DNA of 11,716 nucleotides from Candidatus Saccharimonadota bacterium (GTDB lineage Bacteria; Patescibacteriota; Saccharimonadia; Saccharimonadales; Saccharimonadaceae). Position numbers and translations under genes: made by a program. This document shows, piece after piece, positions 2,376-9,354 of the stretch. The DNA lies in the NCBI GenBank assembly GCA_030527565.1, contig JAUNAO010000020.1, forward strand, positions 1 through 11,716, given 5' to 3'. The notes beneath the pieces were generated by a model. It did not search any database, had not been told where the DNA came from, and saw nothing but the letters and a program-made list of their open reading frames with translations. The number at the start of each line of letters is the position of its first letter. Within the stretch, counting starts at the first letter, position 1.

Positions 2376-3509
2376 CAACTTTTTCAGTTCCGTTTTATAA
2401 GCCTCAACCCCAGGCTGGTCAAACGGATTAACTCCAAATAATTTCGCTGACACCGCACAAGCCAACTCAAAGAAATAAATTAACTCCCCAAACCCTCGTT
2501 CATCATACGACTCTGGCCGAATCGACAAAACTGGAATCCCGCCCGCCGCGTGCGCCAATTTTACTGCCGTTACTACTTTCATATTCAATTCGTCCGTTGG
2601 ATAATCAATAATCGTTTCAAACAAATTTCGCCGTCCGTCTTGCATAAACTGACCAAGCGAATGTAAATCCGTCGAATAAATCACGCTCGTCGGCAAAATC
2701 CCCTGCTTACCTTTCCCCTCAGATTCGCCAAACAACTGTTTCAACCATTCGTTAAAATACATCGCACTCGGCTCAAAACTCGCAAAAACCTCCGTATCAT
2801 AATTCTTCTGCCCCAACAAATTCCGGATAAACGCATATTGTATTGCTGGATTTGCCATAGTTTCAGAATCTAAACTTTCCCGAAACTCCGCCGCGCCTTC
2901 TAATAACTTATCAATATTAACTCCCGCAACTGCCATAGGCAACAACCCCACCGCCGTTAAAACTGAATATCTCCCACCAATATTATCCGGCACAACAAAC
3001 CGTGTGTAGCCCCTTGATACCGCTTCGTCATGCAAAGTCCCCTTCTCTGCGTCCGTCGTTGCATAAATTCGCTCCGCCGCCGCTTCCTCGCCATATTTCT
3101 CAATCAATTTTTTCTTAAATTCCTCAAAAGCGATCGCCGGTTCTAAAGTCGTTCCAGATTTAGAAATCACATTGACCGAAAAATCCGCATCCCCAACTTC
3201 CTCAAGCGCCCGGTTAAGCTCCCGTCGCGACAAAGAATTTCCAGCATAGACAATTTTGACCGGCGACCTCGAACCTAGAGCCTCAATAATCGCCCGATGT
3301 CCAAGATAAGAACCGCCAATCCCAATACAGACTAAAATCTCCGCCTCGGACTGAATCTTCGCCGCCGCTTCCTTAATCCTAGAGAGCTCCGCCATGTCCA
3401 CTTTCCTCGGCAAATCAAACCATCCCCCCATCAGATCGGCTTCAATTTCCGTCAATATCTCCCCCGCCCGCTTAGTATCTATTTCTGGTGCAAAATTCAC
3501 TTTAATCAT
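2373..3509 (-). CDS. pgi: Glucose-6-phosphate isomerase
   Basis: A cytoplasmic enzyme interconverting glucose-6-phosphate and fructose-6-phosphate. Visible features are the first SIS-domain phosphate-binding loop CIGIGGSYLGHRA (61-73), VISKSGTTLEPAIAF (114-128), DNIGGRYSVL with the conserved Arg180, FGESEGKG with the likely catalytic Glu262, DLHSLGQ with the ring-opening His283, and QPGVEAYK with the conserved Lys372. At 378 residues it is clearly shorter than the usual 440-550. The N-terminal helical part before the first SIS loop is reduced to about 60 residues and the protein ends just after the Lys motif, yet every catalytic residue I looked for is present. This looks like genome-streamlining reduction and not truncation. 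It is the first gene of the pgi-gpmI-membrane protein unit. Confidence 0.96.
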   Translation of the reverse strand: MIKVNFAPEIDTKRAGEILTEIEADLMGGWFDLPRKVDMAELSRIKEAAAKIQSEAEILVCIGIGGSYLGHRAIIEALGSRSPVKIVYAGNSLSRRELNRALEEVGDADFSVNVISKSGTTLEPAIAFEEFKKKLIEKYGEEAAAERIYATTDAEKGTLHDEAVSRGYTRFVVPDNIGGRYSVLTAVGLLPMAVAGVNIDKLLEGAAEFRESLDSETMANPAIQYAFIRNLLGQKNYDTEVFASFEPSAMYFNEWLKQLFGESEGKGKQGILPTSVIYSTDLHSLGQFMQDGRRNLFETIIDYPTDELNMKVVTAVKLAHAAGGIPVLSIRPESYDERGFGELIYFFELACAVSAKLFGVNPFDQPGVEAYKTELKKL

Positions 3510-3667: not shown

Positions 3668-3754
3668 GCCCGAGTGGCGGAATTGGCAGACGCGCTAGCT
3701 TCAGGTGCTAGTGTTCGCAAGAACGTGCAGGTTCAACCCCTGTTTCGGGCACCA
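3668..3754 (+). tRNA. tRNA-Leu (anticodon CAG)
   Basis: An 87-nt class II tRNA with encoded CCA. The acceptor stem pairs GCCCGAG (3668-3674) with TTCGGGC (3744-3750, one G-T pair); the discriminator is A3751 and CCA is 3752-3754. The anticodon stem CTAGC/GCTAG holds the loop TTCAGGT with anticodon CAG at 3702-3704, which decodes CUG. The long variable arm (around GTTCGCAAGAAC) and the T-loop GTTCAAC are typical of tRNA-Leu. Confidence 0.96.
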
Positions 3755-3763
3755 TTAAAATTT

Positions 3764-3839
3764 CTGGGTGTGGCGCAGTTGGTAGCGCGCAGCGTTCGGG
3801 ACGCTGAGGTCGTCAGTTCAAGTCTGATCACCCAGACCA
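3764..3839 (+). tRNA. tRNA-Pro (anticodon CGG)
   Basis: A 76-nt tRNA with encoded CCA (3837-3839), 9 nt after tRNA-Leu. The acceptor stem pairs CTGGGTG (3764-3770) with CACCCAG (3829-3835). The anticodon stem CAGCG/CGCTG holds loop TTCGGGA with anticodon CGG at 3797-3799, which decodes CCG. The T-loop is GTTCAAG. It should be co-transcribed with tRNA-Leu. Confidence 0.96.
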
Positions 3840-3840
3840 C

Positions 3841-3861
3841 AAATCCCTCAGGGGATTTTTT
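3841..3861 (+). terminator. Intrinsic terminator of the tRNA unit
   Basis: The stem AAATCCC (3841-3847) pairs with GGGATTT (3852-3858) around a TCAG loop and is followed by a run of T to 3861. It begins right after the tRNA-Pro CCA. The opposite strand lacks a T tract of similar quality. Confidence 0.85.
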
Positions 3862-3994
3862 ACAACCCAAAAATCTTCTTTACATCCGAATAAGCCTTCG
3901 GTGATTTTTTCACTCCCGCAACCGCAAAATCAAGTTTCACTAGCCGATAATTGCCCGCAGCCGAAATCAAATCCGCCCGCTTCGTCAGCAACAT
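3860..3994 (-). CDS. Possible small ORF downstream of the Xre regulator
   Basis: A 44-codon reading frame starts with an ATG at 3992-3994, five bases past the stop of the Xre/DUF4065 gene, and ends with TAA at 3860-3862, against the tRNA terminator. The same frame is open back to an ATG at 4088-4090 (76 residues), which would overlap the upstream gene by 91 nt. The predicted peptide is basic, soluble-looking and rich in Ala, Val and Lys. It fills an otherwise empty 130-bp interval, and its codons resemble those of neighbouring genes, but there is no clear ribosome site and I recognise no family. It could be a small partner of the regulator, or the remnant 3' end of a longer gene. Confidence 0.35.
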   Translation of the reverse strand: MLLTKRADLISAAGNYRLVKLDFAVAGVKKSPKAYSDVKKIFGL

Positions 3995-3999
3995 ATACC

Positions 4000-4719
4000 C
4001 TATACCTGCGCTGGCCCATATATCTTCTCCGGCTCTTCCTGAAAAATCAAACCGTATGGGATTACTTCGCCATCCAGACAAATCTGCCACGGCAACTGTT
4101 CATGTGTAAAATTAACAATGTCCTCCGTCGACTTCCCCTGCCATGCCTTACAAATTTTCTTAATCAAATTCACTTCCCCCTTCGACAATTTTCCGTTCGG
4201 GGCTTCTTTCTCAACCAATGAAAACATAATCGCCTGACCCTTCTGTTCACGCAAAATCACCCCGTCATCCTCCATCTCATCCAGCGCCCTAAAATAAACG
4301 TCCGCTACTGGCCCCCGCGGCAATTTCCGATAAGCCATTCCCGACATCGGTTTTGAGTTTTCATAATACCAAATAAAATCAACCAAATAAACTAACTTCG
4401 CCAATTTCGTTTTTGTAATTTTCCCATCACTATCCGCCCCAAACCGCAAAGCATTCAAAATAATTTGTTTATATTTATCAGTAAAAATTATAAAATCAAA
4501 CAACGTCGCTGTATCATCTGCAACTCCTAGAATATCCCCAATACTAATCCTTAAAATCGACGACAATGCGTCAGCCTGACTAATCGTTAATTCCTTTTTT
4601 CCGGTCTCAATATTTATATATGTTGGGCGACTCACGCCAATCGCCTTCGCGATTTGTTCCTGAGAGTATCCGCGCGCCTGTCGTGCCCGCATAATGTTGT
4701 TCGATACTTGCCCACTCAT
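4000..4719 (-). CDS. Xre-family regulator with DUF4065 (Panacea/SocA-like) domain
   Basis: A 239-residue protein. Residues about 6-65 are an Xre/Cro helix-turn-helix: N-N-I-M-R-A-R, then YSQEQIAKAIGVSRPTYINI, then a KELT segment. A 20-residue linker leads to a C-terminal domain (about 95-235) with the pattern KTKLAKLVYLVDFIWYYE, MAYRKLPRGPV, then DEMEDDG, as in DUF4065. Domains of this family (Panacea, SocA) serve as antitoxins or proteolytic adaptors, so an antitoxin/autorepressor role is a fair inference. I start at 4719 because AAAGGA lies just upstream and because a near-consensus promoter (4747-4775) sits inside the longer open frame, which would exclude its upstream start at 4788. No large toxin gene follows, only the small ORF at 3860-3994. 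Confidence 0.85.
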   Translation of the reverse strand: MSGQVSNNIMRARQARGYSQEQIAKAIGVSRPTYINIETGKKELTISQADALSSILRISIGDILGVADDTATLFDFIIFTDKYKQIILNALRFGADSDGKITKTKLAKLVYLVDFIWYYENSKPMSGMAYRKLPRGPVADVYFRALDEMEDDGVILREQKGQAIMFSLVEKEAPNGKLSKGEVNLIKKICKAWQGKSTEDIVNFTHEQLPWQICLDGEVIPYGLIFQEEPEKIYGPAQV

Positions 4720-4746
4720 ACTAAATCCTTTCTTTTTCCTAACTCC

Positions 4747-4775
4747 ATCATAGCACAGATTTAGCAAAAAGTCAA
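4747..4775 (-). promoter_or_regulatory. Promoter of the Xre/DUF4065 gene, with possible operator
   Basis: The minus strand has -35 TTGACT (4770-4775), a 17-nt spacer and -10 TATGAT (4747-4752) preceded by TGC (extended -10). A second TTGACA lies 13 nt upstream (4783-4788), so TTGAC occurs twice as a direct repeat over the -35 region. Such a repeat could be an operator for autoregulation by the Xre protein; this is inference. Confidence 0.75.
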
Positions 4776-4851
4776 CATCAATTGTCAAGTTTTTTTACAA
4801 AAATACATCTCATTTTTTACATATCTATTAAATTTACCCTCGTCTCAAAAC

Positions 4852-4902: not shown

Positions 4903-5775
4903 ATGGGAAAAGGTCCTGAAACGCAAAATTACTCAAAGCAAAAAACGCGACTCTTACTTGAAGAAAAACCGAGCGACGACAAGAACCATAAAACCGTCGA
5001 CGAACTAAGACGCGACATCTACGCGAACTATCGCGAAACTAAACGCCAAGTTTTCGAACTCGAAAAGTCAAACTCGAGCCATCTCTACTTTTTCCCTTCT
5101 TCCGACATCGATACAAACTCGAAAAAATTTTACCTTCTCGGCGGCAATTCCGCCATCATCTTCACTCAAGAAATCGCCCCACGCATCAAACAATCCCAAA
5201 AACTCCGTCGCGATACCGACATCGGCGATTACAAATTCTATCACGGCGTCTGCGCAACCTCAAATCTCGAAAAGCTAACCGAAAAACTTGCCGAAATCGG
5301 CATCAAACGCAAAAAAGACAACGGCGGAATCATCGTCTTCAAATTAACTCGCACCTATGCAAAAGCCGAGATTAAAGAAATGTTAAAACAAAAAGACGTC
5401 GAACTCGAAAAACTGAACCACCTCGCTTACCCCGAAGTCGTTCATCCCGAAATTCATAAACTCGTCATCAAACTAAAGAAAGAAATCCCACCAAAAACCA
5501 GCAAACTCCCACTTTTCTATCGCCAAACTTTCGGCCAAGATTTCTACTCTGCCCTTTCCGAATTAACAACTTCCTATACTTCCCTCGCCCGCCATCATCT
5601 CCCCGCAAAAACCGCCGGCCTAAAAATGCTCCTCGCCCTTGATCGGATGATCAACCTCGTCTCTTCCCTCAACGAAATTAGCGTTTGGGAAGTCTCGACT
5701 TGCTCCCGCCTCATCGCCATTTTAACCGACCTCGAATCCTTAACAAAACGCAAAATCATCAAAGAGGGAAAATGA
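4903..5775 (+). CDS. DGR accessory protein: MutS-like domain fused to Avd-like domain
   Basis: A 290-residue protein directly upstream of the reverse transcriptase, with ATGA overlap. Residues 1-40 are basic and polar. Residues about 55-150 follow the pattern of the MutS mismatch-recognition domain I: FYLLGGNSAIIF aligns by eye with the FYE-F-x-DA segment, and FYHGVCATSNLEKLTEKLAEIGIKRK with the later G-(Y)H-x(n)-Y-L-x-LxxxGYKVA segment. Residues about 178-285 resemble the helical Avd accessory protein of DGRs: helix around HKLVIKLKKEIP, helix around FYSALSELTTSY, then KTAGLKMLLALDRMINL (compare the AGL-x-MLRFWLRFL segment of Bordetella Avd), then a last helix with STCSRLIAILTDLESL and a basic tail. 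Avd binds the RT and template RNA and is needed for mutagenic cDNA synthesis. The MutS-like assignment is by eye and weaker than the Avd one. Confidence 0.82.
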   Translation: MGKGPETQNYSKQKTRLLLEEKPSDDKNHKTVDELRRDIYANYRETKRQVFELEKSNSSHLYFFPSSDIDTNSKKFYLLGGNSAIIFTQEIAPRIKQSQKLRRDTDIGDYKFYHGVCATSNLEKLTEKLAEIGIKRKKDNGGIIVFKLTRTYAKAEIKEMLKQKDVELEKLNHLAYPEVVHPEIHKLVIKLKKEIPPKTSKLPLFYRQTFGQDFYSALSELTTSYTSLARHHLPAKTAGLKMLLALDRMINLVSSLNEISVWEVSTCSRLIAILTDLESLTKRKIIKEGK

Positions 5776-6908
5776 AGCTAATCGACGAAAACGATAAAAA
5801 GTGGCTCGAAAATCCAAAAAACCAGCTCCTCTTCGAACTCAACATTGCCTACAACGAAGCCCGTCGCGGTGGAAAACGTGGCACTTTCGACGAACACAAA
5901 TTCGAAATCAACGAAGCTACTAATCTCGTCAATCTCCGCGACACCCTCCTCGACCGCACCTATCGCCCTTCCCGCGGCACCGCCCACATCATCTACAACC
6001 CAGTCATCCGCGAAATTTTCGCCGCCCCCTTTCGTGACCGCATCATCCATCACTGGATTTATAATTGCGTTTACGATTGGTGGGACCGCCGTTTCGTCAT
6101 TGACTCCTACTCCTGCCGCGAAGGCAAAGGCACAAAATACGGTATCGACCGCCTCGCCCATCATATTAGGTCCCTCTCCGACAATTACAAAAAAGAAATC
6201 TACGTCATTAAACTTGATGTCCAAGGCTACTTCATGTCGCTCGACCGCGAAAAATTATTCAAGCGCGCAATTTGGGGTCTCGACCAACAATTCAAAAACA
6301 ACAAAAACTGGAAATATCATTTATTAAAATTTTGTTGGGAGCAAATCATTTTCGACGACCCAATCAAAGGCGTCATAAAACAAGGTTGGCCAAACGACTG
6401 GAAAAATCTCCCGCGTTCAAAAAGTCTTTTCTACCAGCCAAAAGGCAAAGGCATCGTCATCGGCAACCTAACCTCCCAACTCCTCTCAAACATTTACCTC
6501 GACCAACTCGACCGCTACATAATTTACGATCTCGGTTATAAACACTACGGCCGCTATGTCGACGATTTCTATTTCCTCGTCGAAAAAGAAAATCTCGAAA
6601 AAGCGAAAAACGATATCAAAGCCATCGAACGTTACCTAACCCGCCTCGGTTTAACTCTCCACCCGAAAAAACGTTACATCCAACCCGTCTCACGCGGCGT
6701 CCCGTTCGTCGGCGCCGTCGTCTACCCAGGTCGCATCTACCCGAGCAAACGCCTCGTCAAAAACTTTCGCACCGCCGTACATGAAGTCGCCACCGGTCGT
6801 CGCGATCCTGAATCGATCGCGTCCTACCTCGGCCACTTAAAATACCTTAAGTCCGACAAATTAATTACGAAAGTTTTTGCTGAAGTCGGCTGGAAATACC
6901 GCCGCTAA
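5772..6908 (+). CDS. Diversity-generating retroelement reverse transcriptase
   Basis: A 378-residue RT, the usual compact size for DGRs. The start is ATG 5772, overlapping the previous stop as ATGA and preceded by AGAGGG; a longer open frame to 5685 lies wholly inside the upstream gene. Motifs: RPSRGT and a conserved Arg-rich fingers region (65-120), motif A IKLDVQGYF (146-154, metal ligand D149), the DGR-diagnostic motif IGNLTSQ (230-236, the family form being [ILV]GxxxSQ where group II introns have QG), catalytic YVDD (262-265), LTLHPKKR (294-301) and PFVGAVVYPG (311-320). There is no maturase, endonuclease or protease domain. It copies the template RNA with errors at adenines. No terminator is visible after it: the stop is only 17 bp from the TR, so its message may run antisense into the template. 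Confidence 0.96.
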   Translation: MKLIDENDKKWLENPKNQLLFELNIAYNEARRGGKRGTFDEHKFEINEATNLVNLRDTLLDRTYRPSRGTAHIIYNPVIREIFAAPFRDRIIHHWIYNCVYDWWDRRFVIDSYSCREGKGTKYGIDRLAHHIRSLSDNYKKEIYVIKLDVQGYFMSLDREKLFKRAIWGLDQQFKNNKNWKYHLLKFCWEQIIFDDPIKGVIKQGWPNDWKNLPRSKSLFYQPKGKGIVIGNLTSQLLSNIYLDQLDRYIIYDLGYKHYGRYVDDFYFLVEKENLEKAKNDIKAIERYLTRLGLTLHPKKRYIQPVSRGVPFVGAVVYPGRIYPSKRLVKNFRTAVHEVATGRRDPESIASYLGHLKYLKSDKLITKVFAEVGWKYRR

Positions 6909-6925
6909 AAATAAAATTTTGAAGA

Positions 6926-7153
6926 GGAAGAGACCTAGAGGGGAAACGAGAAAACCTACAAAGATAACATACATCGCACCGAGTTCCCGTTGTTCCGATT
7001 GTTGTTGTTGCCCGAGTTCAACCCATTCGACGGATTGTAGTTCAGGTTGTAACGATTGTTAGCATTGTTCGCGGTAGTAGACCACCAGTTCCCGTTCGTC
7101 GACGGATTGTTGAGGGTACTATTGTTCCAGTTCCCAGCCGCGACAGGCGAGAA
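6926..7153 (-). repeat. DGR template repeat (TR)
   Basis: This 228-bp copy matches 7681-7908 at a constant offset of 755 bp without gaps. I count 32 differences, of which 30 lie at plus-strand T (template adenines; about 58 adenines in total). The two exceptions are 6934 (C/G, outside the coding part) and 7051 (A/G). Read in the frame of the target gene, it encodes 23 Asn codons (AAC or AAT), and 22 differ in the VR. The low-coordinate end (the 3' end of the template RNA, 6926-6973) carries four adenines that are all unchanged, as expected for the region where cDNA priming/homing starts. Confidence 0.97.
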
Positions 7154-7595
7154 ACTAGCGTACGCGCTCCCGATCGCTCGGGAGGCCGGGCAGAGAGAAC
7201 CCAGCAAGTACCATGAACTACGCTGTGACAAAACGCCGCAAAAACAACAATTGCTTTTGGGGCAAAGAAACATCTTAATACCTTTACGGCTCGGAAGCCG
7301 AAAAGGGCTGACCCTAAGTCTCCCCCTCTAGCGGTTCAAAACGATTCTCCGCCGCCATCCGCGCTACTTCTTCAGGGACCATTGACCTGCATTCAATTTG
7401 CAGGGTGTTTCTGCTCTCTTCCTTTTCTTCGGGACCAACCTCGGTGATCGGGGCTTACGAAACTGCGACTTCTGCCCGGTGCTACCCTAGGTCCCCGAAT
7501 GCAGCAATTCGAGATTGACTTACGCATTCGAATCTTTAATTCGAGGGCACTCGTACCGGCTCGCACCTTTCGGTGCTCGCAAGTCGTAGACCCTT
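6926..7595 (-). ncRNA. Predicted DGR template RNA with a ~440-nt structured leader
   Basis: The promoter at 7602-7630 would start a minus-strand transcript near 7595 that reads through 7154-7594 and then the TR. The leader has no plausible gene on either strand but holds several clean hairpins. They are GCACC-GAAA-GGTGC (7563-7576), TCGAAT/ATTCGA (7528-7544), CCTGCA/TGCAGG (7386-7404), an 11-position stem with one mismatch (7281-7306) and CTCCCGA/TCGGGAG (7167-7184), the last only 13 nt before the TR. I compared the region by eye with RNase P RNA, tmRNA, SRP RNA and group I/II intron signatures and found no match. The 3' end is not defined: the RNA may extend past 6926 antisense to the RT gene. 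This interval (6909-7680) otherwise has no gene. Confidence 0.6.
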
Positions 7596-7601
7596 ACCCT
7601 T

Positions 7602-7630
7602 ATTATACATTCTGCTCCAGTTTACCACAA
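7602..7630 (-). promoter_or_regulatory. Promoter of the DGR template RNA
   Basis: On the minus strand the -10 box is a perfect TATAAT (7602-7607), the spacer is 17 nt and the -35 box is TTGTGG (7625-7630). It sits between the VR and the structured leader and points toward the TR, which gives the template its own transcription start separate from both the RT operon and the target gene. Confidence 0.75.
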
Positions 7631-7645
7631 GCAGTTCGACGATCG

Positions 7646-7672
7646 GCCGCCTTCGCCCTAGGCTACGGCGGC
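7646..7672 (-). other. Hairpin just downstream of the VR (candidate homing hairpin)
   Basis: GCCGCC (7646-7651) pairs with GGCGGC (7667-7672), with an inner GCC/GGC pair (7655-7657 with 7661-7663) across a 3x3 internal loop. It starts 8 bp past the 3' edge of the VR. A DNA hairpin/cruciform just after the VR is known to assist target recognition in the Bordetella phage DGR. No T tract follows, so an intrinsic terminator for the target gene is unlikely. Confidence 0.5.
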
Positions 7673-7680
7673 GATGCTCC

Positions 7681-7908
7681 GGAAGAGAGCTAGAGGGGAA
7701 ACGAGAAAACCTACAAAGATAACATACAACGCACCGAGAACCCGTAGCTCCGACTGCTGCTGCCGCCCGAGACCAACCCATACGACGGACTGTAGCCCAG
7801 GGCGTGACGAGTGCTAGCACCGTACGCGGTAGTAGACCACCAGTACCCGCCCGTCGACGGATTGTAGAGGGTACTAGTGTACCAGTACCCAGCCGCGACA
7901 GGCGAGAA
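7681..7908 (-). repeat. DGR variable repeat (VR) inside the target gene
   Basis: This is the diversified copy of 6926-7153. It codes for residues 483-547 of the target protein, the stop codon and 30 bp beyond it. Twenty-nine adenine-site changes fall in 22 Asn codons, giving Tyr, Gly, Ser, Thr, Ala, Val and Phe; one more is silent in an Arg codon. Since AAY mutated at A gives NNY, no stop codon can arise. Confidence 0.97.
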
Positions 7909-9354
7909 TGCATCTACGTTAACCTTACTCCAGCTTCCATCCCCACCGATATTGTTCCATTCCGTATCGCTTGGCATCTTCCAGTTGGCCGGACAGATAT
8001 CGATAGTTGCTTCACCGCCATTCGTTCCAGACGCCTCGCAACGTTGTCCTGCAGTTGCGGCACAGTAGTTATACCAATACCCGTTTGCTTCTGCGGTAAG
8101 TTTTGTCTTTGTTAAATCTTCCTCGGTTGGAACTTGAACTCGTGCTTCAGTATAAGTATTAAATATCTTATTTGGTAATACGCCAACCGTACCGAGAGTT
8201 GTTGTAACAATTTCCGTCGATCCTTCTGGAACTAACCCGCGGAGGTTCGTCGTATCGGAACTTAGCGTCATTCCAGCCTCAAGCGCAAGACTCATATTTT
8301 GTGTTGTCCAACAATGACCGTTAATATATTGCACCGTGTAAGAATTTCCGTCTCGTTCATCCCAGAGCGTAACCGGCGACGTCGACGCCTCAGCTAAACA
8401 CTGATCATCCGTGTATTGCTGAATTGATGGTTTCCAAACTGCATAAAGTTCAATATTATTCGCGCTCGTCGTGCTAACCGTAACTTCGCCGCCAGCCTTA
8501 ACTAACTCACCAGTACATTCCCCTTCCGTAGCCGACGCAACCGTACACCAACCGCCGAACGCAAGACCCTCCCGTCGTGGGACAATCTTCGAGACTGTTC
8601 CCGTAGTTCCCGCCGTCGTTCCTTCTTCCCCCGAAGCCGGCATATTTGTTACTTCACTCGTTGTATTCGTATTATAATTAATTATATATAAAATCGGATT
8701 CACGACCGCCGTTAAAATCACATTCTTCGAATAAGTCCCCGTTGGGATTGTATTATTAATCCGCGCCGCGAAACCTACGCTATAATTATTCGCCGTCGCA
8801 TTCGCCGCGTCTGTCTTGTCTAACGAAACTGCCGTTGTTGTCGGGGATGGATGATACGAACTTCCCGCGAGGCTCGGCGTACTATAATAGTAACCCCATT
8901 TATTGCTATATGTCGTCGCATTTGCCGCCGAAAATTCCGCTTCGGTTAGTTCGTTCTCGATCGAAGCGATATTTACCGGCGTAGCGTCTTCCGTCGTTAC
9001 CGTACCCACTAAATTCCCCGCATCATCTTCCGCCGAAATTAAAAGTTCATATCCGAAAAAGTGATCCGTCGTTACCGTAAATTCCGCCGCCGAAGATTTA
9101 ATAAAAATACCATCTTTTAATTGTGTTTTCTCACTATCCGATAAATTTTCCATGGTCGCGGAAGCGGCTCCCGTGCTCGTAAGGGTCAGGGTTGGATCCG
9201 TCCCCTCCTCGCCGTCAACCGCCCCCACGTCTCGCACACCTTGATCTATTGGGATAAGGGTCATGGTGGCGAGCAAACTTAATGCAAAAAAAGCAACAAA
9301 GATACTTTTCTTTGTGTTTTTTTGAAACGTAATATTGTGTTGTGTTCTCTTCAT
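7711..9354 (-). CDS. DGR target: secreted protein with C-type-lectin/FGE-like variable domain
   Basis: A 547-residue exported protein. Residues 1-45 form a signal peptide with a basic start (MKRTQ, KNTKK), a hydrophobic core at 18-35 and a VGAVDG cleavage region. Residues 55-220 are a Thr/Ser/Ala-rich beta region without a family I can name. Residues 222-308 match an InlB/Listeria-Bacteroides-type repeat (FGGW, then IELYAVWKP). Residues 315-547 match the Fib-succ major-paralogous/formylglycine-generating-enzyme-like C-type-lectin fold: GHCWTTQNM (347-355), CPANWKMPSDTEW (454-466), YWWSTT (504-509) and a terminal SVRCMLSL. The last 65 residues are the VR, and variable positions cluster at 490-539 on the expected ligand surface. 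There is no LPxTG-like motif, C-terminal helix or lipobox, so how it stays on the cell is unclear. It probably binds a surface partner, the ligand being unknown. The start lacks a clear Shine-Dalgarno sequence. Confidence 0.94.
   Translation of the reverse strand: MKRTQHNITFQKNTKKSIFVAFFALSLLATMTLIPIDQGVRDVGAVDGEEGTDPTLTLTSTGAASATMENLSDSEKTQLKDGIFIKSSAAEFTVTTDHFFGYELLISAEDDAGNLVGTVTTEDATPVNIASIENELTEAEFSAANATTYSNKWGYYYSTPSLAGSSYHPSPTTTAVSLDKTDAANATANNYSVGFAARINNTIPTGTYSKNVILTAVVNPILYIINYNTNTTSEVTNMPASGEEGTTAGTTGTVSKIVPRREGLAFGGWCTVASATEGECTGELVKAGGEVTVSTTSANNIELYAVWKPSIQQYTDDQCLAEASTSPVTLWDERDGNSYTVQYINGHCWTTQNMSLALEAGMTLSSDTTNLRGLVPEGSTEIVTTTLGTVGVLPNKIFNTYTEARVQVPTEEDLTKTKLTAEANGYWYNYCAATAGQRCEASGTNGGEATIDICPANWKMPSDTEWNNIGGDGSWSKVNVDAFSPVAAGYWYTSTLYNPSTGGYWWSTTAYGASTRHALGYSPSYGLVSGGSSSRSYGFSVRCMLSL

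Follow-up and report, generated by a model that had tools for sequence, protein, structure and literature searches.

Organization of the locus

The window, the whole stretch of 11,716 nt analysed here, is contig JAUNAO010000020.1 of the Candidatus Saccharimonadota assembly GCA_030527565.1, a genome of 595 kb on 61 contigs. By its sequence features the element in the window is a diversity-generating retroelement (DGR), whose genes and repeats are as follows:

4903..5775, plus strand: accessory protein, 290 aa, with an extra N-terminal domain and a C-terminal Avd-like bundle
5772..6908, plus strand: DGR reverse transcriptase (RT), 378 aa, with GIVIGNLTSQ and YVDD (RVT_1 match, profile match, alignment)
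6926..7153, minus strand: template repeat (TR), with 17 nt between it and the RT stop (repeat finder, TR/VR alignment)
7646..7672, minus strand: inverted repeat, 6-bp stem and 15-nt loop, 8 nt beyond the VR end; possible target hairpin
7681..7908, minus strand: variable repeat (VR), 3' end of the target gene (repeat finder, TR/VR alignment)
7711..9354, minus strand: target gene, 547 aa, with the VR inside a Fib_succ_major domain (open frame, Pfam, NCBIfam)

The preliminary description had claimed a complete DGR with intact frames in a CPR-type genome, and this reading held: the TR/VR pattern, the DGR RT, the accessory protein with its Avd bundle and the target were all present in this Saccharibacteria genome, and all three frames were open. 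A repeat finder returned one 228-nt pair in the window, 86% identical. When TR and VR were realigned in the coding, minus-strand orientation and tabulated by template base, they matched without gaps over 228 bp and differed at 32 positions, 30 of which fell on the 58 template adenines (hypergeometric p 3.8e-19), as had been described. The changes from TR to VR were A>G (16), A>T (11), A>C (3), T>C (1) and G>C (1), and A was never the VR base at a difference. Codon positions 1 or 2 took 30 of the 31 in-gene differences, the 32nd lying beyond the stop. Because TR and VR are on the strand opposite the RT, the excess appears at T when the plus strand is read.

The RT matched Pfam RVT_1 (E 3e-11), and a profile built from 16 relatives placed it in the DGR lineage, as the preliminary description had proposed: its best match was the BPP-1 DGR RT (8ub7_A, E 5.9e-40), the next RT following at 1.5e-11. 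IGxxxSQ is a mark of DGR RTs, and IGNLTSQ was present in the RT alignment. A retron-type RT was not indicated, NCBIfam retron_St85 reaching only 52.3 bits against a cutoff of 235, far short of the DGR RT match. The accessory protein is an Avd-type protein plus an extra domain; the Avd-like four-helix bundle spans approximately residues 177-290 and the additional domain approximately residues 32-176. MutS domain I was suspected for the latter (hhalign to a P. goldsteinii ORF, probability 11, E 0.003). Foldseek returned zero matches below E 0.001 for models of either the two-domain protein or the N-terminal domain. A profile match of the accessory protein to beta-phosphoglucomutase (E 0.025) was discarded as a local match.

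The target matched Pfam Fib_succ_major (E 2.4e-9, 38.1 bits, cutoff 33.9) and NCBIfam FISUMP (42.9 bits, cutoff 41.65), a family match that places the VR within the C-terminal domain; no PDB sequence matched at E<=1, and the lectin fold named in the preliminary description is putative. The N-terminus of the target, as read from the sequence, is hydrophobic, and the FISUMP-domain protein is probably exported. In a 90%-identical relative of the target, 24 of the 31 VR residues at adenine codons were different, as were 1 of the 34 remaining VR residues and 27 of the 480 residues outside the VR, and the VR therefore appears to diversify in this lineage. Such VR-limited divergence between close relatives is no more than an indirect sign of retrohoming; at the level of the lineage, it supports the activity that the preliminary description had considered likely. 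In 71 loci, the mean longest stem was 6.04 after the VR, 5.30 after the TR and 4.21 in shuffled sequence, and stems of at least 8 were found 17 times after the VR and 12 times after the TR. For a VR on contig C32, action in trans by the cassette on contig C39 is not claimed, as the contig ends fit a broken cis arrangement.

Inverted template repeats in related loci

The TR of the window is inverted behind the RT, on the opposite strand. Outside its own genome, 38 of the 40 best-matching RT loci of the same genus contained a TR/VR pair, and the TR was opposite the RT strand in 38 of 38. Mismatches fell on A in 788 of 840 cases among these pairs, which were retained only if at least 65% of their mismatches were at A. 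The target was on the RT strand in most related loci. In an RT tree built by a quick method with a midpoint root, from which L145 was omitted for an excessively long frame and in which the 23 rows lacking a TR/VR pair carry the label 'none', 72 inverted rows fell in one RT clade.

A structured RNA leader 5' of the template repeat

The region between TR and VR contained a conserved structured domain, with the following features:

7254..7442, minus strand: conserved core of the template-RNA leader (covariance models, pair counts)
within 7254..7442, minus strand: 30 nt ahead of P1 in the core, including the P0 5' strand (covariance models)
7406-7412 with 7266-7272, minus strand: P1 helix, enclosing P2 and P3 (covariance models, pair counts)
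7399-7404 with 7386-7391, minus strand: hairpin P2 (covariance models, pair counts)
7287-7300, minus strand: hairpin P3 (covariance models, pair counts)
7274-7276, minus strand: AAG in the leader core (covariance models)
7413, minus strand: conserved C immediately ahead of P1, a candidate for the priming nucleotide
7415..7423, minus strand: P0 5' strand AGGAAGAGA, just upstream of P1, pairing with the TR 3' end
6925..6933, minus strand: P0 3' strand TCTCTTCCT, complementary to 7415-7423 and covering the last 8 nt of the TR
7602..7630, minus strand: promoter-like sequence, TTGTGG, 17 nt, TATAAT (TA[TA]AAT upstream of related cores)

Searching 44 loci (481 kb, both strands) with covariance model R1 gave 27 matches at E<=1, 23 of them seeds, and all 27 ended from 196 nt before to 13 nt past the TR 5' end on the TR strand. 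Across 40 matches, the leader domain was 89% paired with a covariation of 0.79, compared with at most 0.16 when the structure was slid. A structure-free MAFFT alignment of 23 sequences gave 81.1% paired cells (39.7-46.3% slid) and a covariation of 0.633 (at most 0.171 slid); P1 had been chosen by eye ahead of alignment and P3 had not, and P3 taken alone was 80.3% paired in this alignment. Training-free loci, aligned to the RNA model and with L190 excluded, yielded 14 matches in 13 loci with 91.7% pairing and a covariation of 0.858 (at most 0.171). Relative to a shuffle control, the number of pairs changed on both sides was not raised (16 vs. 14.7, 147/500, in alignment A1; 17 vs. 16.3, 200/500, in A8); only the both-sides-changed cell count, the paired share and the covariation score were. 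The C before P1 was found in 35 of the 39 A8 rows with a letter there and in 23 of 23 in A1, and is not invariant. A covarying RNA domain 5' of the TR, apparently kept by compensatory change, is shown by these alignments.

The strength of this covariation bears on the reading of the locus as a DGR of the usual BPP-1 type, whose 3' spacer would continue into the antisense of the RT gene and whose region 5' of the TR would be a mere untranslated leader. BPP-1 requires a folded 3' spacer, according to the cited part of PMC12875486, and has a TR-RT gap of 144 nt by annotation; antisense read-through may occur, and in most loci a search for terminators 3' of the TR found none. Strong covariation is unexpected of a passive leader, however, and the gap to the RT stop is 17 nt here and has a median of 41 nt in 77 loci, so that we regard this reading as improbable. 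The window contains no long 3' spacer of the BPP-1 type, and the RNA model did not match a 7-kb BPP-1 stretch.

The RT clade with RNA matches held 88 RT rows, of which 41 had a match, at E 0.07 and 0.12 for the two weakest, and 47 had none. Model R2 matched one (L097) of the 40 loci L084-L123 and, at E<=10, none of six phage or viral loci. A whole-genome search at E<=0.01, in which 11-15 candidates were scored per genome and which gives no proof of absence elsewhere, produced same-genus matches only, in 5 of the 199 genomes of the family and 2 of the 286 genomes of the phylum. Two matches departed from the usual placement: the domain of L144 lies on the other side of its TR, and a weak match in L149 (E 0.21) was on the wrong strand. 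At gathering score, Rfam detected nothing but tRNAs in the window and likewise in seven related loci. A CRISPR-repeat match on the other strand (Rfam, E<=1, positions 6900-7720; E 0.23, 21.7 bits vs. 50) was taken as chance.

The conserved RNA could be an independent small RNA, or a regulator such as an attenuator or riboswitch, that simply adjoins the TR. Its own promoter-like sequence and the absence of a fitting Rfam family would suit such an element. The domain, however, keeps company with the TR where the latter has moved or turned (L061, L130, L170), flipping along with it relative to the RT in L130 and L170, and it adjoins the TR in L210, far from any RT found. In addition, P0 links the domain to the far end of the TR, making an independent RNA very unlikely. 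Used for searching, the RNA model blindly located a template unit with no RT gene beside it in genome G022, where it matched contig C2 (E 4.9e-6) and the RT is on contig C8; a TR lay directly 3' of the match and a VR 1 kb off, with 24 of 31 mismatches at A, and no match to the RT or accessory protein of the window occurred within 12.5 kb.

Probable closure of the template RNA by P0

The P0 scores of own pairs summed to 199.1 over 27 loci, compared with 151.8 (SD 5.7) with the tails of other loci, and to 106.4 compared with 80.4 (SD 4.0) over 14 further loci, a disjoint set; 0 of 20,000 permutations reached the own-pair sum in either. In only 9 of the 27 loci did no other tail score higher than the own one. 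Many loci scored 6.0-6.3, unrelated tails averaging 5.56, and low scores were obtained for L060 and L065 (4-5) and L043 (4.0). The signal was weak in 37 inverted loci without an RNA match (7.44 vs. 6.96; 7/5,000). Ten long-spacer DGRs gave a similarly weak P0-like signal (8.85 vs. 7.76; 7/5,000), and closure may therefore not be special to the 5'-structured group.

Transcription of the template RNA

Upstream of the cores, TA[TA]AAT was detected in 33 of 37 loci on the TR strand and 20 of 37 on the other strand (9.2 expected), and a scan for promoter-like sequences up to 450 nt from the TR in 38 loci gave 24 on the TR strand and 14 on the other (7.9 expected). Leader helices contained 56 G-U compared with 25 A-C, which mildly favours the TR strand. 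These observations argue against transcription of the template RNA from the RT strand, whereby mutation would occur at template U and the structured region would lie 3' of the template as in BPP-1. Inverted repeats are alike on both strands and the RT adjoins the TR in most loci, as such transcription would allow; yet, according to the cited part of PMC8144416, mismatches between TR and VR are found opposite template A across the clades of DGRs, and DiGReF sought C-, G- and T-type pairs and interpreted its three T cases as inverted TRs (PMC3521204, section cited). We consider RT-strand transcription the least probable of the alternatives, with a very small chance of being correct. Of 77 loci, 28 had terminator-like sites 3' of the TR when the TR strand was scanned, 39 had them on the RT strand and 16 in a control stretch; these sites are not decisive, and the RNA 3' end is therefore not fixed.

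Proposed mechanism

Our favoured reading, which we hold to be quite likely, is that this DGR uses a 5'-structured, P0-closed template RNA to diversify the last 65 residues of a FISUMP-domain protein, itself probably exported. The template RNA would start at its own promoter near 7600, in the direction opposite to the RT gene, and its leader would fold into P1-P2-P3. Pairing of the P0 strand upstream of P1 with the TR 3' end would bring the template start beside the folded domain, the presumed binding site of the RT and of the accessory protein with its two domains. Synthesis of cDNA might then begin at the junction of P0 and P1, where the conserved nucleotide is a possible starting point. During copying of the TR, bases would be inserted at random opposite A, and the VR would be replaced by the resulting cDNA, the 5' leader and closing helix taking over the job of the BPP-1 3' spacer.

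The locus is unusual in four respects that the preliminary description had not pointed out: its TR is inverted, a structured RNA lies 5' of that TR, the two ends of the template RNA are predicted to close on each other, and the accessory protein has two domains. We regard the element as a DGR variant with a 5'-structured, P0-closed template RNA, as predicted here; among the titles and abstract openings searched in the open literature, none described a 5'-structured DGR template RNA or Saccharibacteria DGR RNAs, which does not prove their absence in print. More tentatively, and with somewhat less than even confidence, we propose a second, retron-like layout of DGR RNA, with the folded domain 5' and the template 3', P0 as the closing helix, and cDNA priming in the leader, at the P0/P1 junction, instead of in a 3' spacer. 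Such a rearranged BPP-1 RNA may extend to other CPR bacteria, Bacteroidales and gut phages, in 10 loci of which the TR ended 7-98 nt before the RT and was preceded by 104-255 nt without a long ORF. A short TR-RT gap also occurred in five viral or phage records. The 595-kb genome retains two cassettes for targeted protein diversification, perhaps at a host-facing surface.

Comparison with known systems

On paper, the predicted layout resembles retron ncRNA, in which the folded domain is 5' and the template 3', msr preceding msd (PMC8867640, part cited). The element of the window differs from retrons in its DGR-type RT and in a product that goes into the VR; a branch G or msDNA is not known here. 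In retrons, the a1/a2 helix closes the two ends of the ncRNA.

RT and TR lie on opposite strands in the window, as in inverted DGRs, which form DiGReF group 4 (Shewanella, Vibrio, Photobacterium), with the RT on one strand and TR, VR and target on the other (PMC3521204, part cited). Three cases from proteobacteria make up that group, their repeats measuring 130-139 nt, and the section on them describes no RNA structure (PMC3521204), whereas the clade of the window has 72 inverted rows and the RNA domain in 41 of 88; the two are likened by layout, kinship apart. DGR clade 2 of Roux et al. 2021 (Patescibacteria) shares the superphylum and is likened by host group alone; the words accessory, orientation, secondary structure and Saccharibacteria do not occur in the main text (PMC8144416).

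Most of what is known about how DGR cDNA synthesis starts comes from one phage system. The BPP-1 DGR has in common with the window A-specific TR/VR change, a related RT, an accessory protein of the Avd fold and a VR at the C-terminus of the target. In BPP-1, TR and RT share a strand, the TR coming first, beside avd and 144 nt from the RT by annotation, and the template RNA carries a folded 3' spacer (PMC12875486, part cited). In the window, the TR follows the RT in inverted orientation, only 17 nt separate it from the RT stop, and there are a folded domain 5' of the TR, the P0 closure and an extra accessory domain. A second RNA layout with compensatory change across dozens of Saccharibacteria loci would represent an independent solution relative to the solved BPP-1 RNP, and comparison of the two layouts would point to the RNA parts that may be essential.

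The cassette and its relatives

The window is an entire contig (C15) of a 595-kb genome in 61 contigs that is 95% complete, and contigs related to it are Candidatus Saccharibacteria by name, many of ruminant gut origin. The features referred to here are:

4000-4788, minus strand: gene with HTH and SocA/Panacea antitoxin-like matches (Pfam E 3e-14 and 5e-14), adjoining the cassette
4903-5775, plus strand: accessory gene
5772-6908, plus strand: reverse transcriptase (RT)
6926-7153, minus strand: template repeat (TR)
7254-7442, minus strand: RNA core, in which stem P1 encloses hairpins P2 and P3
7415-7423, minus strand: P0, just upstream of P1, complementary to the 3' end of TR (6925-6933)
7681-7908, minus strand: variable repeat (VR)
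7711-9354, minus strand: target gene

The TR/VR divergence claimed in the preliminary description was reproduced exactly on realignment, with 32 of 228 positions differing on the minus strand, 30 of them at template adenines.

RT matches at E ≤ 0.001, some weak, were present in 59 of 100 genomes of the same genus, and 40 loci of the best matches were fetched. The pair finder, which recovered the annotated TR of the Bordetella phage system BPP-1 exactly, detected a TR/VR pair in 38 of the 40. TR lay on the strand opposite to RT in all 38, behind RT in 37 and before it in one (L061); VR was upstream of RT in 32 loci, and the remaining six share the window's arrangement, with VR downstream. Among the 77 inverted rows of the RT tree set, TR is separated from the RT stop by a median of 41 nt (≤140 nt in 71).

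The window's genome holds a second cassette on contig C39 (L010) with its own accessory gene, RT, RNA core (2372-2554, minus) and TR. The corresponding VR lies on contig C32 (L009, 136-353), gap-free over 218 bp with 27 differences, all at adenines; the contig ends are consistent with a target-accessory-RT-TR order split by assembly. A further target-like gene on contig C1 (L008, 5726-7297, minus), 47% identical to the window target, differs from the window TR at 37 positions, 25 at adenines; it may be an older target, or one served in another way.

Diversification of the variable repeat in the lineage

Four of 31 listed target homologues were compared with the window target, whose own copy (P0009) was among those omitted. 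VR residues were divided into 31 with an adenine at TR codon position 1 or 2 and 34 others.

Differences from the window target (A-codon VR; other VR; outside VR)
P0010, protein database, 90% identical: 24/31; 1/34; 27/480
P0011, 76% identical: 20/31; 1/34; 96/475
P0013, more distant: 21/31; 3/34; 248/453
P0015, more distant: 24/31; 7/34; 192/388

This pattern of differences is what repeated A-targeted rewriting would predict, and it speaks for the lineage, not for the current condition of this individual cell.

A conserved RNA domain 5' of the template repeat

A common pattern was first spotted by eye in the 430 nt 5' of TR. When 23 segments were aligned with MAFFT (alignment A1) and P1, P2 and P3 imposed on the result, 81.1% of cells were paired vs. 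39.7-46.3% in slid versions, and covariation was 0.633 vs. at most 0.171. Both sides had changed in 16 of 19 pairs, a count that shuffles attain as well (mean 14.7), and P2 aligned poorly (62.9%).

A first covariance model (R1), searched over 44 loci, gave 27 matches at E ≤ 1, 23 of them its seeds. All 27 were directly 5' of a TR and on its strand, ending between 196 nt before and 13 nt past the TR start. A second model (R2), trained on these 27 and run over 80 further-fetched loci, 25 of which duplicate earlier ones, gave 28 matches at E ≤ 1, with 13 matched loci new. Placement was evaluated for 26 matches, one per locus, excluding second matches in L144 and L149. A TR/VR pair was present in 24 of these loci, and the RNA ended 3-196 nt 5' of TR, on the TR strand, in 23 of the 24. 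The exception, L144, has its better match beyond TR and its second (E 0.045) 41 nt 5' of TR. The two L144 matches (2522-2634 and 3076-3180, minus) are in tandem and may represent a duplicated and decayed template unit. The second match in L149 (E 0.21), on the opposite strand, is probably due to chance.

In alignments fitted to the model, the 14 matches outside the training set, from 13 loci (L097 and all but one of the 13 new loci), were 91.7% paired with a covariation of 0.858 vs. at most 0.171, and the 40 matches combined were 89.4% paired (0.792 vs. at most 0.156). An A (40/40) and a G (37/37 rows with a letter) preceding the P1 3' strand and a C in P2 (40/40) were invariant.

In four other loci (L184, L185, L187 and L189; L185 titled 'bacterium', the others Saccharibacteria), TR lies behind RT on the same strand. 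By eye, the RT-TR gap of about 250 nt contains a P1-like CAATACT...AGTATTG and, in some, a hairpin straight after its 5' strand; the L184 record includes masked bases. The RNA model search did not detect these P1-like elements.

Searching genomes across the family with R2 revealed one match away from any RT, on contig C2 of genome G022 (E 4.9e-6). At this locus (L210), the core (6085-6222) is 13 nt from a TR (5828-6071) whose VR (7096-7339) has 31 mismatches, 24 at adenines, and tblastn with the window RT and accessory protein gave no match over 12.5 kb. Thus the RNA domain by itself predicts the template. The only RT found in G022 is on contig C8 (L054), where no TR/VR pair was found within the 13 kb fetched. 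L210 may be a template unit served in trans, or the two contigs could be mis-binned.

Proposed closure of the RNA by P0

Pairing was scored between the 20 nt preceding P1 and the TR-end region (25 nt of TR and 30 nt beyond). Over 27 loci, own tails summed to 199.1 vs. 151.8 (sd 5.7) for permuted tails, with 0 of 20,000 permutations as high; without five close relatives the values were 157.5 vs. 120.1 (sd 5.0; 0 of 20,000), and in 14 other loci 106.4 vs. 80.4 (sd 4.0; 0 of 20,000). The per-locus score was 7.37, and two control stretches gave 5.3 and 5.1. The own tail was the best or tied best partner in just nine of the 27 loci, which makes this a collective signal. In 12 of 27 and seven of 14 loci, the window included, TR/VR identity runs on for 4-9 nt past the start of the P0 3' strand. 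Because P0, the TR end and P1 converge at one place, we infer that cDNA synthesis may be primed where the three meet.

The motif TA[TA]AAT occurred within 220 nt upstream of 33 of 37 cores on the RNA strand and of 20 on the other strand (shuffle expectation, 9.2), and G-U cells outnumbered A-C cells (56 vs. 25 in alignment A8; 37 vs. 26 in A1). In L130 and L170, TR sits on the RT strand, before the accessory gene and behind RT respectively, and the RNA domain has switched strand with it; the RNA domain and its TR therefore behave as a single unit whatever the orientation of RT.

RT phylogeny and accessory protein

In a quick-method, midpoint-rooted tree of 136 RTs, all 41 rows with an RNA match fell in a single clade of 88 rows (SH-aLRT 99) and none among the remaining 48. 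The clade comprises 72 inverted layouts, 11 rows without a pair, three with TR behind RT on the same strand, and one each with TR before RT on the other and on the same strand. Outside it, 36 rows had a pair, with TR on the RT strand in 30 and on the other in six. Inversion is thus common within the clade and rare outside, with several changes. RTs of L174 and L200 (titled Deltaproteobacteria and Nomurabacteria) adjoin this Saccharibacteria group; L200 and L089, the latter assigned to the window's family, are one locus, and the L174 and L200 records are perhaps mislabelled or mis-binned.

In 25 rows with TR before RT on the same strand, the gap, from estimated RT starts, was 7-98 nt in 10 loci and 213-484 nt in 13; L089 and L130, with an accessory gene between TR and RT, were set apart. 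In the short-gap loci, which include Parabacteroides goldsteinii (L203), 104-255 nt separate the previous ORF and TR. P0-like pairing scored 8.69 vs. 7.32 (0 of 5,000) across 17 loci with short-gap or other layouts and 8.85 vs. 7.76 (7 of 5,000) in 10 long-gap loci, which offers no more than a lead. L203 (NZ_JADNBB010000006.1) is a DGR with TR on the RT strand, in which a separate ORF precedes avd (3693-4202, 4199-4543), with a Fib_succ_major target and a 12-nt P0-like pairing; the ORF has a weak, below-cutoff match to MutS domain I (E 0.017). Being a cultured system, it would allow the idea to be tested.

The window accessory protein had eight homologues at E ≤ 0.001 in a search, requiring shared five-residue words, of a database of 5.8 billion. 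Its C-terminal 110 residues are an Avd bundle, and Pfam bAvd was matched by all eight aligned accessory proteins of same-strand relatives. The N-terminal domain gave a good model (pLDDT 91.9), for which Foldseek returned nothing below E 0.001; three of 33 family members matched HTH_3. These three, identified from the alignment as those of L043, L044 and L055, are long accessory proteins with an extra N-terminal part resembling an HTH domain.

Comparison with known systems

Inverted DGRs were reported as a rare type in 2012 (PMC3521204), and CPR bacteria are likewise known to carry DGRs (PMC8144416). In the BPP-1 model (PMC12875486, PMC8867640), the folded RNA is located 3' of TR. Searches of open literature turned up no account of a DGR template RNA folded on its 5' side and closed. 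Inversion and a CPR host are already known, and what appears new, relative to that literature, is a DGR template RNA predicted to be folded 5' of TR and closed.
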